The position numbers were made by a program, and so were the translations under genes. A stretch of DNA of 64,000 bases, taken from a virus. The DNA lies in the IMG/VR virus record IMGVR_UViG_3300021962_000060, positions 1 through 64,000 of that record, one strand, 5' to 3'. Below the pieces are notes generated by a model, which saw only the letters and a list, made by a program, of their open reading frames with translations, had not been told where the DNA came from and searched no databases. This document shows positions 264 through 21,029 of this stretch, in pieces. Positions within the stretch are counted from its first letter, which is position 1, and each line of letters begins with the position of its first letter.

Positions 264-300
264 GGGAACCCCGACCCGAAAGGGTCGGGGTTCTCCCTTT
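264..300 (+). terminator. Intrinsic terminator after the first family A gene
   Basis: A GC-rich hairpin (ACCCCGACCC, GAAA loop, GGGTCGGGGT) is followed by TCTCCCTTT. It lies 20 bases after the stop codon. Confidence 0.8.
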
Positions 301-303
301 CCC

Positions 304-372
304 GACCCACTTTCGGGTCTGGCGTACTGACCCACTTTCGGGTCGAGCGTACTGACCCACTTTCGGGCAGGG
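304..372. repeat. 25-nt tandem repeat, three copies
   Basis: Copies begin at 304, 329 and 354 with the core GACCCACTTTCGGGTC followed by a variable pair and GCGTACT. Each core is itself a short inverted repeat (GACCC/GGGTC). The third copy is truncated. The function is unknown. Confidence 0.8.
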
Positions 373-12795: not shown

Positions 12796-13276
12796 CCTCT
12801 TCTTCACTAAAATTGTTGTCAATAATTTTGTAAAAAGTCTCTTGTTGATTTTCATGTTCTTCAACAATTCTTTTCATAATATTAGTCATTTGTTCTCTAA
12901 TTTCTTTTAACCCCTCCAGTTCTTCTTCCGACAAAGTGCTTTCATCAAGTTCTTCAAAATTGTACTCAGCCTCAATGTATTCTTGACGCTCGCTATCAGA
13001 CATATTCCTCATATTTTCATATTCATGAATAGCAGCGCCATATCTATACACCATGTCTAGATCATCATTACTCAAACCAGTTTCTTGCTGAATTTTTTCT
13101 AAAGAAAGTTTTTTGATCATAATAATCTTTCTAATATCAACTTCATCATCATCCTCAATACTGCTCATGTAATCTTCACTCATTTGACATATGATTTCTT
13201 CTCTTCTATTGAATAGCCAAAGCATCATATATGGATGTACATTATTGATATTATAAAAGTCTTTTGCTGTATACAC
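12788..13276 (-). CDS. Hypothetical acidic helical protein
   Basis: A 162-residue protein starting at a GTG (13276) with AGGAGG 5 nt upstream. Longer in-frame versions would run into the structured RNA upstream. It contains a segment resembling a helix-turn-helix (LSLEKIQQETGLSNDDLDMV) and a strongly acidic C-terminus. It might be an acidic regulator; the function is unknown. Confidence 0.7.
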   Translation of the reverse strand: MYTAKDFYNINNVHPYMMLWLFNRREEIICQMSEDYMSSIEDDDEVDIRKIIMIKKLSLEKIQQETGLSNDDLDMVYRYGAAIHEYENMRNMSDSERQEYIEAEYNFEELDESTLSEEELEGLKEIREQMTNIMKRIVEEHENQQETFYKIIDNNFSEEEDE

Positions 13277-13305
13277 ATTTCCTCCTGATTTGATATATAA
13301 AAAAA

Positions 13306-13425
13306 AGAATAGGCAAGAATCCTTTGCAAAGACCAATTGCTTTAATATCAACTACTGAACAACCGCGCACAGTAATCAATACAGGATTCTCTTAAGCCAA
13401 CCTAGGGGAAGCTTTAGCCTATTCT
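13306..13425 (-). ncRNA. Structured RNA, copy 1
   Basis: Closing stem P1 (AGAATAGGC/GCCTATTCT, 9 bp). P2 is a TAA-bulge-GC hairpin with a CCCCT loop (13393-13397 with 13411-13416). P3 is AGAATCCT/AGGATTCT (13316-13323 with 13383-13390), enclosing a 12-bp P4 (13346-13357 with 13370-13381) and a short P5. P4 has three G-U pairs that form only in the minus-strand RNA, which fixes orientation. It begins 4 nt after the 3' end of tRNA-Arg, so tRNA 3' processing could release it. The 3' end runs into eight T residues. The same architecture recurs at 13813-13926. I do not recognise the class. Confidence 0.7.
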
Positions 13426-13428
13426 TAG

Positions 13429-13501
13429 CACCTCAAGTAGGACTTGAACCTACAACCTACAGATTAGAAGTCTGTTGCTCTATCCATTAAGCTATTGAGG
13501 T
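13429..13501 (-). tRNA. tRNA-Arg (anticodon UCU)
   Basis: Acceptor ACCTCAA/TTGAGGT with discriminator G; anticodon stem ACAGA/TCTGT, loop CTTCTAA; T stem GTAGG/CCTAC with loop TTCAAGT. It is 73 nt with no encoded CCA, and reads AGA codons. Confidence 0.9.
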
Positions 13502-13510
13502 ATTTAATTA

Positions 13511-13735
13511 CTAAAAACTATATTCTTGAAGATCAATAATTGTCCCAACTCTACTGCTAACACAACTATCACAAATATAAATACGACTAAAAGTCATATC
13601 ATATTCAGAACCATAGTTACCCACAAAATCGAGGCTGGTTCCTTTGTAGATGTTATCATCACTTTTGAAAAGACACTCCAACTCTTTGAAGCACACAAAG
13701 CAAAGTACATTTCCATTATTTGTTTTATTTTCCAT
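13511..13735 (-). CDS. Small zinc-binding protein between two tRNAs
   Basis: A 74-residue protein beginning MENKTNNGNVLCFVC. The CFVC and CDSC pairs suggest a zinc ribbon. It lies between tRNA-Lys and tRNA-Arg with only a few nt on either side, so it probably shares their transcript. The function is unknown. Confidence 0.75.
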   Translation of the reverse strand: MENKTNNGNVLCFVCFKELECLFKSDDNIYKGTSLDFVGNYGSEYDMTFSRIYICDSCVSSRVGTIIDLQEYSF

Positions 13736-13737
13736 AG

Positions 13738-13809
13738 TATCTCAGGTAGGATTTGAACCTACAACCAATAGATTAAAAGTCTACTGCTCTACCATTGAGC
13801 TACTGAGAT
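13738..13809 (-). tRNA. tRNA-Lys (anticodon UUU)
   Basis: Acceptor ATCTCAG/CTGAGAT with discriminator A; anticodon stem GTAGA/TCTAT, loop CTTTTAA; T stem GTAGG/CCTAC. It is 72 nt with no encoded CCA. It starts 3 nt after the structured RNA at 13813-13926. Confidence 0.9.
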
Positions 13810-13812
13810 AAA

Positions 13813-13926
13813 TTAGAATAGGCAGAGAACCTTTGTTGCAATGGCAAACTTTGATATCTTGCCGAAGCAAAGATACAGGTTCTCCTTAATGTTTCAGAAA
13901 GGGGTAAAACACTTAGCCTATTCTAA
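13813..13926 (-). ncRNA. Structured RNA, copy 2
   Basis: P1 TTAGAATAGGC/GCCTATTCTAA (11 bp). P2 TAATGTTT with one bulge and a loop containing CCCCT (13887-13894 with 13907-13915). P3 GAGAACCT/AGGTTCTC (13825-13832 with 13877-13884) encloses P4, capped by a stable C(UUCG)G tetraloop on the minus strand, and P5. Compared with copy 1, stems P2 to P5 differ in sequence but keep pairing, while CCTGTAT, GATAT-(C/T)-AAAG and the CCCCT loop are conserved. It ends 3 nt before tRNA-Lys, so RNase P could define its 3' end. Confidence 0.72.
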
Positions 13927-13937
13927 ACCTTTTGTGG

Positions 13938-14504
13938 TTAGCAGGCCAAAGACCAAGGCTTCCAACCACACAAACCTTTTTCTTCTCTTGAAGAGTAAAG
14001 TTTGTAAGCAAACTCCAAGTTTATTCTAGGATCAAACATATCGTCTGGATGACTATAACCCATTTGGCTCAGCCATTCAGAGTGAATTTGGTTAATCTGA
14101 GTCAAGCCGGCATCGTGACCATTCCAAGCGTCAGTTGTGCAACGACTTTCTTTCCATATAATCTGAGAAACATTAGGCCATTCTTCTTCTGTAAACCCAA
14201 CATCAATAGCTAGGTCATGCCATTCACCACACTTGCCATACTTTTCTCTGAGTTGCTCAACAGTTAAAGTTTCTTCTGCTTCAATCGCAACATTCACAGA
14301 ATCAATATCAACAGGTGGAATCGTTATGACAGGCATAGTTGTTGTAGTTGTTGTAGTGGTTTCCACCTCTGTAGAAGAAACTACATAATATCCACTATCA
14401 CCTTCAATAGGATTATTTTTCAAATCATCATTTGATGCTAATACTGATATGCCAGTCAATCCTAAACTGATACCAATAATTGTAATTATAATAATACGTT
14501 TCAT
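13938..14504 (-). CDS. Secreted lytic transglycosylase-like protein
   Basis: A 188-residue protein with a signal peptide (MKRIIIITIIG..., cleavage likely after VLA-SN near residue 24), a Thr-rich linker (about residues 50-57) and a C-terminal SLT/lysozyme-like domain. The motif IIWKESRC holds the candidate catalytic Glu, followed by AWNGHDAGLTQINQ-x-H. It probably cleaves host peptidoglycan. The Sec signal suggests export of a host-wall remodelling enzyme rather than a virion part. It lies unexpectedly inside the tRNA cluster. Confidence 0.85.
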   Translation of the reverse strand: MKRIIIITIIGISLGLTGISVLASNDDLKNNPIEGDSGYYVVSSTEVETTTTTTTTMPVITIPPVDIDSVNVAIEAEETLTVEQLREKYGKCGEWHDLAIDVGFTEEEWPNVSQIIWKESRCTTDAWNGHDAGLTQINQIHSEWLSQMGYSHPDDMFDPRINLEFAYKLYSSREEKGLCGWKPWSLAC

Positions 14505-14672
14505 ATTTGCTCCTTAAGTAGTGTGTCTAAACGAAAACCGTTTCGGCATCGCTAAATCAGTAGCAAAACGAAATTGTCTACAAACCAAAATCGCTTTACT
14601 AGTAAGTTATATCAATAAGCATCACCTCCATATAAGTACATCTCTCTATTATACCATTTATACAAGCACTAG
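14505..14672 (-). other. Leader region upstream of the transglycosylase
   Basis: No supported gene. On the minus strand a TATAAT box near 14650 is followed by GGAGGTGATG with a possible 7-residue leader peptide. Several self-complementary stretches (CGAAA...TTTCG type) precede the transglycosylase ribosome binding site AAGGAG. Confidence 0.4.
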
Positions 14673-14744
14673 TACCCCTGCGTGGAATCGAACCACGTTT
14701 ATCATTTTATAAGAATGACATCCTAACCAGTAGATGACAGGGGC
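14673..14744 (-). tRNA. tRNA-Ile (anticodon UAU)
   Basis: Acceptor GCCCCTG/CAGGGGT (one G-U pair) with discriminator A; anticodon stem TCATT/AATGA, loop CTTATAA; T stem CGTGG/CCACG. It is 72 nt with no CCA. The anticodon reads AUA directly, instead of the usual bacterial lysidine-modified CAU species. Confidence 0.85.
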
Positions 14745-15894: not shown

Positions 15895-15925
15895 ATTTGT
15901 CTCCTTTGCTGATTAATGGTAATAG

Positions 15926-15998
15926 TGAGCGTGATGGGACTCGAACCCATACTGTAAAGATTTTAAGTCTTCTGCCTCTGCCATTGGGCTACACGCCC
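15926..15998 (-). tRNA. tRNA-Leu-like (anticodon UAA), short variable loop
   Basis: Acceptor GGGCGTG/CACGCTC with discriminator A; anticodon stem GAAGA/TCTTT, loop CTTAAAA; T stem ATGGG/CCCAT. The variable loop is only about 5 nt, whereas bacterial tRNA-Leu normally has a long variable arm. Identity is therefore assigned from the anticodon alone. Confidence 0.8.
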
Positions 15999-19743: not shown

Positions 19744-20127
19744 TTAATTGTTCTCTAGCATTTGGACAAGACGTTCAGCATATTCATACATTGGTGATTT
19801 TTCATCCAATACTCTGAAAGCATGGTCAAACCAATCATTGAAATGATACTCAACTTTATAGATTTCACCACTGCTGTTTTCATCATAAAGATAAATCTCT
19901 AACCAATCACCAGGGCCACCTGTAGAGATTTGGACAGTAATAACTTTTCTTGTATTGATATCTAATGGATATTCATGGAAAGCATCATAGGCATCTTCAT
20001 ACCCATCAAAAGTCATTCCGTCATCCATTGCGGCAAGCATCTCCATCATGTAGTCATTACGACTTTTAAGATGACTATCAATTCTTAGTTCACAAGAATT
20101 GTCTCGGATTTGATCTTCAATATTCAT
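19744..20127 (-). CDS. Hypothetical acidic protein
   Basis: A 127-residue protein beginning MNIEDQIRDNSCEL. It overlaps the ParB-domain gene by 4 nt, so it is co-translated with it. No motif is recognised. Confidence 0.7.
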   Translation of the reverse strand: MNIEDQIRDNSCELRIDSHLKSRNDYMMEMLAAMDDGMTFDGYEDAYDAFHEYPLDINTRKVITVQISTGGPGDWLEIYLYDENSSGEIYKVEYHFNDWFDHAFRVLDEKSPMYEYAERLVQMLENN

Positions 20128-21029
20128 TCTACTCCTTGTAGGTAATTTCTTGCATCAAGAGAAAGAACAACAATAGAATTCAACTTGCTAGCACGAAGTC
20201 TATAGTTGTAACTATCAATAATCATAAGGCACAAAGCAATATTGTTAGCAAAAGGTGTCGATCCTCTGCTGGAAGATTTAGCTTTTGCAATCACATTAGT
20301 AGGGTCACCAAGAGAGGCAATACACGACGCAAGACGAGTCAGATTAACCAACTTATAGTTGACAATAATCGTCGCAACAGCAGTCAAATATTCAGCCTGA
20401 AATGCTGTCGAGTTTGTGCCGTTTGCTTCTTTCAAAACTTTGATCACATTGTTCAAGTTGTTAATTCCTACTTTGGAATTGACTTTATACAAAGTATCAA
20501 TAGCTCTAATTACTCCATCACCAGGTCTATTCTCAACAGAAAGGTTATGAGAGCGAAGCATAGCATCAATAGCAACTGAATCAGGATTGCCCGAACTAAC
20601 GCCGGCCTTATGCAAGTCAGCTTTCTTAGGCTTAGTCCTGTTCTCATTTATAGTAATATACAAGTCTGCTTCATCCTGAATAGACAGATCAAGAAAAACA
20701 ATTGCATTCAAATCACTATTGCCTTTACCCATAATCTTGAGAGCCTCAACACGGTGAGAACCATCAATAATATACAGATCACCATTCTCACGGTAAGACA
20801 AAGTAATAACGCCAATGGCATTCTCATTGTAATTCTTCACAATGAGATTAACCTTGTTTTGATTTACTTCGCGCTGGTAAGACATATCAATCTTCAATTC
20901 AGAAGCTTTGACAAGAGAAGTTAACTTACTTTTCTGCTTAAACTTGACATTGAGATTACTCTCGATTTCTTGAATTGATACAGATTCCATCTGCTCTTTC
21001 ATGATCAAATCAAAATCTTCAGTTTGCAT
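20124..21029 (-). CDS. ParB/DUF6551-like DNA-binding protein
   Basis: A 301-residue protein beginning MQTEDFDLIMKEQ. Residues about 40-125 carry a ParB N-terminal-like domain: YQREVNQNKV, a strand-rich stretch, and the signature YIIDGSHRVEALK followed by (D/E)ADLYITIN-E-N-R-x-K. This matches DUF6551-type actinophage proteins. The remaining helical part lacks an obvious ParB helix-turn-helix. A role in DNA or nucleotide binding is likely. With the parS-like site at 6153-6172 a partition-type function is conceivable, but no ParA is seen. Confidence 0.8.
   Translation of the reverse strand: MQTEDFDLIMKEQMESVSIQEIESNLNVKFKQKSKLTSLVKASELKIDMSYQREVNQNKVNLIVKNYNENAIGVITLSYRENGDLYIIDGSHRVEALKIMGKGNSDLNAIVFLDLSIQDEADLYITINENRTKPKKADLHKAGVSSGNPDSVAIDAMLRSHNLSVENRPGDGVIRAIDTLYKVNSKVGINNLNNVIKVLKEANGTNSTAFQAEYLTAVATIIVNYKLVNLTRLASCIASLGDPTNVIAKAKSSSRGSTPFANNIALCLMIIDSYNYRLRASKLNSIVVLSLDARNYLQGVE

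Follow-up and report, generated by a model that had tools for sequence, protein, structure and literature searches.

The window analysed here, the whole 64,000-nucleotide stretch of DNA, is part of a 90,921-base IMG/VR virus record. Its terminase and DnaE polymerase are ~40% identical to those of Streptomyces phages of the Stanwilliamsviridae, and judged from sequence the window phage is a distant relative of this group. Its minus strand carries a tRNA cluster with two copies of a structured RNA (Table 1). As the initial annotation had proposed, the copies adjoin tRNA genes, copy 1 lying directly past tRNA-Arg(UCU) and copy 2 directly ahead of tRNA-Lys(UUU). The boundaries proposed for copy 1 were retained, whereas the range 13813-13926 proposed for the other copy includes flanking sequence. 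A reading frame similar to the SLT-domain lytic transglycosylase of the window also precedes the RNA in a related contig (L168).

Table 1. Features of the window and of related contigs; positions refer to the window unless a contig is named.
Feature	Position	Strand	Remarks
U-run right after copy 1 P1	13299..13305	(-)	P1 plus U-run resembles an intrinsic terminator
RNA copy 1	13306..13425	(-)	P1 9 bp, P2 loop UCCCCUAGGUU (atypical), P3, P4 13 bp, P5
CCCCU, P2 loop of copy 1	13404..13408	(-)	deviant loop CCCCUAGG
tRNA-Arg(UCU)	13428..13501	(-)	ARAGORN; its end 2 nt before copy 1 start
tRNA-Lys(UUU)	13737..13809	(-)	ARAGORN; begins 5 nt after copy 2 end
RNA copy 2	13815..13924	(-)	P1 9 bp, P2 loop with CCUUUC, P3, P4 closed by C(UUCG)G, P5
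CCUUUC, P2 loop of copy 2	13897..13902	(-)	anti-Shine-Dalgarno word
SLT-domain lytic transglycosylase	13938..14504	(-)	just upstream of copy 2; long threonine run
tRNA-Ile(UAU)	14672..14744	(-)	ARAGORN; same cluster
tRNA-Leu(UAA)	15925..15998	(-)	ARAGORN; same cluster
DUF6551 protein	20124..21029	(-)	weak GmrSD_N/DndB similarity
Miniature member	L353:2547-2625	(+)	directly after tRNA-Arg
Miniature member	L355: ~295-370	(-)	directly after tRNA-Arg
Second structured RNA	L352:366-440	(+)	
Second structured RNA	L353:2398-2472	(+)	
Second structured RNA	L355		
Second structured RNA	L359:473-548	(-)	
Second structured RNA	L361:500-575	(-)	
Second structured RNA	L362:449-524	(-)	
Second structured RNA	L365:219-294	(-)	
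Second structured RNA	L272:5386-5461	(-)	
Second structured RNA	L243:1348-1423	(+)	
Second structured RNA	L245:1824-1899	(-)	
Second structured RNA	L258:4946-5021	(+)	
Second structured RNA	L270		

One five-helix structure (P1, P2, P3, P4 and P5) fits both the predicted fold of copy 1 and the pairs of copy 2. In both window copies P1 is the closing stem, while P3, likewise of 9 bp, carries P4 and P5. The stems had been described as differing in sequence yet remaining paired, and this was borne out by eight pairs changed on both sides between the copies (two in P2, four in P3 and two in P5). On the minus strand, the fold energies of copies 1 and 2 reach z-scores of -4.8 and -6.3 relative to dinucleotide shuffles, compared with -2.6 and -4.3 on the plus strand, and the covariance model gives copy 1 a score of 135.9 bits on the minus strand versus 15 on the plus strand, in agreement with the strand assigned initially. 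The C(UUCG)G tetraloop of copy 2 was confirmed. The single-sequence minimum-energy fold of this copy misses P4 and P5, and its predicted common structure, including the tetraloop, is supported by comparison and not by the single fold. The architecture originally described, a closing stem, a CCCCU-containing hairpin and a three-way junction, here P3 with P4 and P5, is common to both copies, but CCCCU is not the conserved loop word of the family, which is CCUUUC instead. The two structured RNAs are paralogs, as had been proposed.

A covariance model of the two window copies (R1) detected members in five related contigs, with E-values down to 3e-16, and a model built from six sequences (R2) found members in 14 of 50 contigs. 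The search of phage sequences that had been suggested thus yielded homologs, and these show covariation. A DNA pattern on the conserved core (TAGGCTA..CCTTTC..AAGRRAAA) matched 23 stretches in viral contigs, 22 of which were true members by the model, while in 257 Gb of bacterial and archaeal genomes, which served as background rate and control, it matched 58 stretches, none of them true. A first strict pattern search returned no member, and only one of 49 stretches matched by a looser pattern was a member. A model of 28 sequences (R3) confirms all members, and after two model refinements 27 distinct members were obtained from related phage contigs. No match to either copy was found in named phages by blastn, no RNA copy at loci around the upstream lytic-transglycosylase gene, and no member by R2 in Streptomyces BE-type phages, Mycobacterium phage Sebata or T4. 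The same terminase is present in 19 of the 21 RNA-bearing contigs tested (76-81% identity apart from the window's own), and the two contigs without it are partial. Because this terminase is common to 19 of 21 contigs, the RNA family belongs to one phage lineage; its carriers are a single lineage of tailed phages with a distant relationship to Streptomyces phages, and the RNA is kept by dozens of related aquatic phages. We are nearly certain that the window copies, two genes in all, belong to a new family of small phage RNAs with lengths of ~110-170 nt.

A recent repeat could also account for two copies within a genome, and their likeness might reflect chance or a coding or DNA repeat instead of an RNA. 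This explanation is contradicted by the control scan (0/58 true matches versus 22/23 in viral contigs), by strand bias, by non-coding signs such as stop codons in most frames and lengths that are not in step, and above all by compensatory changes over 27 sequences. In the alignment of these members, 97.9% of the predicted pair cells are paired and 23 of 32 pairs are changed on both sides, compared with 4-11 in slid controls. Cells with two-sided changes number 201, versus 56.9 after shuffling and 16-32 after sliding the partner. Fitting this alignment to the model biases it towards the structure, but 19 of 32 pairs were already changed on both sides in the first alignment, which comprised six sequences found by the two-copy model. 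Homologs lacking covariation had been named as an outcome that would speak against a structured RNA; covariation far beyond chance was found in the 27 members and excludes the reading as a chance similarity or repeat.

No linkers separate P3 from P1 or from P4, and P1-P3-P4 can therefore be modelled as one straight, rod-like stack with P2 and P5 as side arms at two three-way junctions. The unpaired letters UA (J1/2), AA (J2/3) and Y-A-A-A (J4/5) are nearly invariant, WA (J5/3) is conserved, and all 27 members have the pair G50-U156 (columns of alignment A5) where P3 meets P4. The CCTGTAT stretch considered conserved between the two copies did not hold up as an invariant, since across the family only the U49 and G50 positions inside it are. 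P4 and P5 vary greatly in length, and in the tRNA-linked group seven distinct members have a P1 as long as 26-27 bp. In a subgroup located between protein genes with no nearby tRNA (L171, L238, L261, L262, L264 and L271), P5 is larger, with two additional hairpins and a GAAGACACGGG-type segment that recurs. The apparent absence of full-length members in G045 and G009 reflects a miniature variant of ~75 nt (Table 1), which consists of P1, the P2 hairpin with a CCCCCUUUC loop, a short P3 stub and then a U-run, with P4 and P5 missing. Since the miniatures keep P1 and the CCUUUC hairpin, these two elements form the core of the RNA. A pattern scan for further miniatures found none. Three observations led us to reject a pseudoknot between the P2 loop and the AAGG immediately 3' of P2: the fourth letter of AAGG has become A in 9 of 25 CCUUUC members with the loop unchanged, its G's are engaged in P3 pairs in all members, and no linker is available to span P2.

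A tRNA-Arg(UCU) or tRNA-Lys(UUU) gene lies within 120 nt of 20 of the 27 members, 11 of these being at most 6 nt away. Sixteen members are found 0-119 nt after tRNA-Arg(UCU) and four are found 5-6 nt before tRNA-Lys or tRNA-Arg, while the remaining seven have no tRNA within 2 kb. Release of the RNA by tRNA processing, as proposed initially, fits the 0-6 nt spacing of the 11 closest members, but it cannot apply to the seven without a nearby tRNA. A U-run directly follows the stem of copy 1 and of several 3' copies; none follows copy 2 or the members in L168, L239 and L241. In five relatives without the RNA (L352, L359, L361, L362 and L365), a strong plain hairpin followed by U5-6 stands directly after tRNA-Arg. 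Plain terminator and structured RNA thus occupy the same site in related phages, a natural swap.

These flanks could indicate that the element serves mainly in processing or termination of the tRNA operon, with P1 and the U-run ending transcription after tRNA-Arg and protecting or framing the tRNA. The plain hairpins of the RNA-less relatives, the U-run after copy 1 and the P1 stems of 26-27 bp in several members are in line with such a role. However, no U-run follows the copies that precede tRNA-Lys or tRNA-Arg, where termination would cut off the tRNA, seven members are not close to any tRNA, and the invariant loop and junction letters are not needed for termination; we therefore consider it unlikely that this is the main function. 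Still less probable, and in our judgement highly unlikely, is a cis-regulatory, riboswitch-like leader of the downstream gene, which in many members starts ~30-60 nt past P1. An ORF with a ribosome-binding site does stand behind most 3' copies, but the ORFs downstream of window copy 1, L167/L276, L171/L264, L170 and L272 look unrelated when read by eye, and behind four copies there is a tRNA gene and not an ORF. Given these unrelated ORFs and the P1 plus U ends of copy 1 and several 3' copies, the RNA is a gene-like element that may double as terminator of the tRNA operon, not the leader of one gene.

The other flank of tRNA-Arg(UCU) is likewise structured. Directly 5' of this gene, twelve relatives carry a second structured RNA of ~70 nt (Table 1) with two hairpins, the loop of each being paired with a segment further 3' to give two pseudoknots. 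Across ten aligned sequences, 93% of the cells pair, 15 of 25 pairs are changed on both sides, and pairing reaches 98.6% in both pseudoknots. This RNA has no Rfam match and was not seen beside tRNA-Arg in the window itself. Just upstream of tRNA-Arg in L170 (1275-1425), a 26-nt direct repeat (CTCCTGAGTATGAGTATAAACTGCTC) flanks ~95 nt that hold an inverted repeat (TTTCTTGGTGG..CCACCAAGAAA), possibly another structured RNA. Unrelated-looking stretches rich in inverted repeats lie immediately 5' of tRNA-Arg in L239, L241, L240, L244, L255 and L276. Structured RNAs seem to be concentrated at tRNA-Arg(UCU) in the carrier lineage, as at a hot spot.

CCUUUC stands in the P2 loop of 25 of the 27 distinct members, the exceptions being window copy 1 and L170, and the word is also kept in the miniatures. 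CCUUUC is part of the 16S 3' tail CCUCCUUUCU, and its complement is GAAAGG. In the RNA-bearing contigs, GAAAGG stands just before the start of 39 of 315 genes, compared with 1.06 expected, and is the fourth most common of the 4096 hexamers ahead of the start codons of these genes. As GAAAGG is so frequent before starts, the CCUUUC loop corresponds to the anti-Shine-Dalgarno word used by the carrier phages, an argument that is post hoc in that the loop was picked after being seen. In a sample of 60 genomes from the class to which an Actinomycetota genome belongs, and which may not be the class of the host, 23 contain the 16S tail GGATCACCTCCTTTCT; draft genomes, however, often have no 16S. The same 3' tail is also found in Bacillus spizizenii. 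Exposure of the loop is predicted from the fold, and the predicted loop is complementary to ribosome-binding sites.

The explanation that we favour, albeit tentatively, is a stable RNA that would pair in trans with ribosome-binding sites through its P2 loop. The RNA would be co-transcribed with the phage tRNAs. In copies after tRNA-Arg, tRNA 3' processing would generate its 5' end; its 3' end would arise from the RNase P cut of the next tRNA in copies before tRNA-Lys or tRNA-Arg, or alternatively from termination at P1 plus the U-run. The CCUUUC loop would then pair with GAAAGG/AAAGGA ribosome-binding sites on messages of the phage or its host and compete with the 16S 3' tail, altering translation during infection. 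We infer trans action because the near-invariant loop matches the ribosome-binding sites of the carrier phages and because the B11/6C RNA, discussed below, offers a precedent. On the other hand, any pyrimidine-rich hairpin loop can look anti-Shine-Dalgarno. Because copy 1 and L170 lack CCUUUC, window copy 1 would need another target.

The two-junction fold is more elaborate than simple base pairing by an sRNA requires, a hint that the partner is a protein or the ribosome. The RNA might accordingly be a protein- or ribosome-binding scaffold or a decoy whose CCUUUC loop mimics the 16S 3' tail, or some other pyrimidine-rich site, and thereby draws to the RNA a protein of the host or phage, or a nuclease that attacks this tail. 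Two precise three-way junctions, the near-invariant unpaired letters and the G-U pair present in 27 of 27 members are consistent with a tertiary fold made for a partner, and the identity of loop and tail supports mimicry. However, no partner gene was found, the Ro60/TROVE domain being absent in 11 RNA-bearing records, and the two miniature members have no second junction; such a role is in our view rather unlikely, if worth keeping in mind.

Returning to pairing with ribosome-binding sites, the loop may copy the ribosome sequence that recognises mRNAs, and the RNA may thereby control which messages get translated. It is possible, although doubtful in this full form, that the RNA, co-produced with phage tRNAs, uses a rigid two-junction scaffold to display a copy of the anti-Shine-Dalgarno sequence of the ribosome and in this way reprogrammes translation initiation in the course of infection. 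If so, tRNAs and an initiation regulator would be supplied from one transcript.

Scans with Rfam 15 at the gathering thresholds matched only tRNAs, both in the window and in 13 homolog loci, and a relaxed scan of 13250-14000 gave no credible match to either copy. The initial impression that the RNAs belong to no known family was thus upheld, and no description of the family was found in the literature searched, preprints and subscription journals excepted. YrlA and Y RNAs are structured RNAs that are tRNA-like or sometimes lie near tRNA genes. This candidate was rejected, since YrlA/Y RNA (RF02553) gave no match above threshold and the 11 RNA-bearing records contain no Ro60/TROVE protein. Like an intrinsic terminator, copy 1 and several 3' copies end in a stem and a U-run where relatives have a terminator; unlike one, the stem encloses a conserved covarying fold of ~100 nt, and other copies have no U-run.

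A precedent for the proposed action is the actinobacterial/mycobacterial sRNA B11 (6C RNA), which represses messages through C-rich loops; these hairpin loops base-pair with G-rich stretches near translation starts (PMC10470900). The pyrimidine loop CCUUUC of the window family resembles these C-rich loops. However, 6C/B11 is a cellular RNA with two C-rich loops, whereas the window family has one CCUUUC loop on a two-junction fold, and the 6C family model gave no match in the window or the 13 homolog loci.

The closest parallel in position is provided by RNAC and RNAD of T4 (species 1 and 2 stable RNAs), likewise two small RNAs in a phage tRNA region; a 2010 review (PMC3014915) still listed their roles as unknown. 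T4 rnaD starts 1 nt after tRNA-Arg, and window copy 1 starts 2 nt after tRNA-Arg. Homology was rejected: R1 with filters off found no match to rnaC/rnaD in the T4 tRNA region, R2 found none in the whole T4 genome, and folds and phage lineage differ. We therefore call the RNA a new family of a sparsely known kind, the small stable RNAs of phage tRNA regions. It is an independent case of structured RNAs at a place equivalent to that of T4 RNAC/RNAD in a distant phage lineage. The family is defensible as new, and the mechanism proposed for it can be tested. Covariance models, a set of conserved letters and a natural minimal version now allow a direct test of what phage tRNA clusters contain besides tRNAs.
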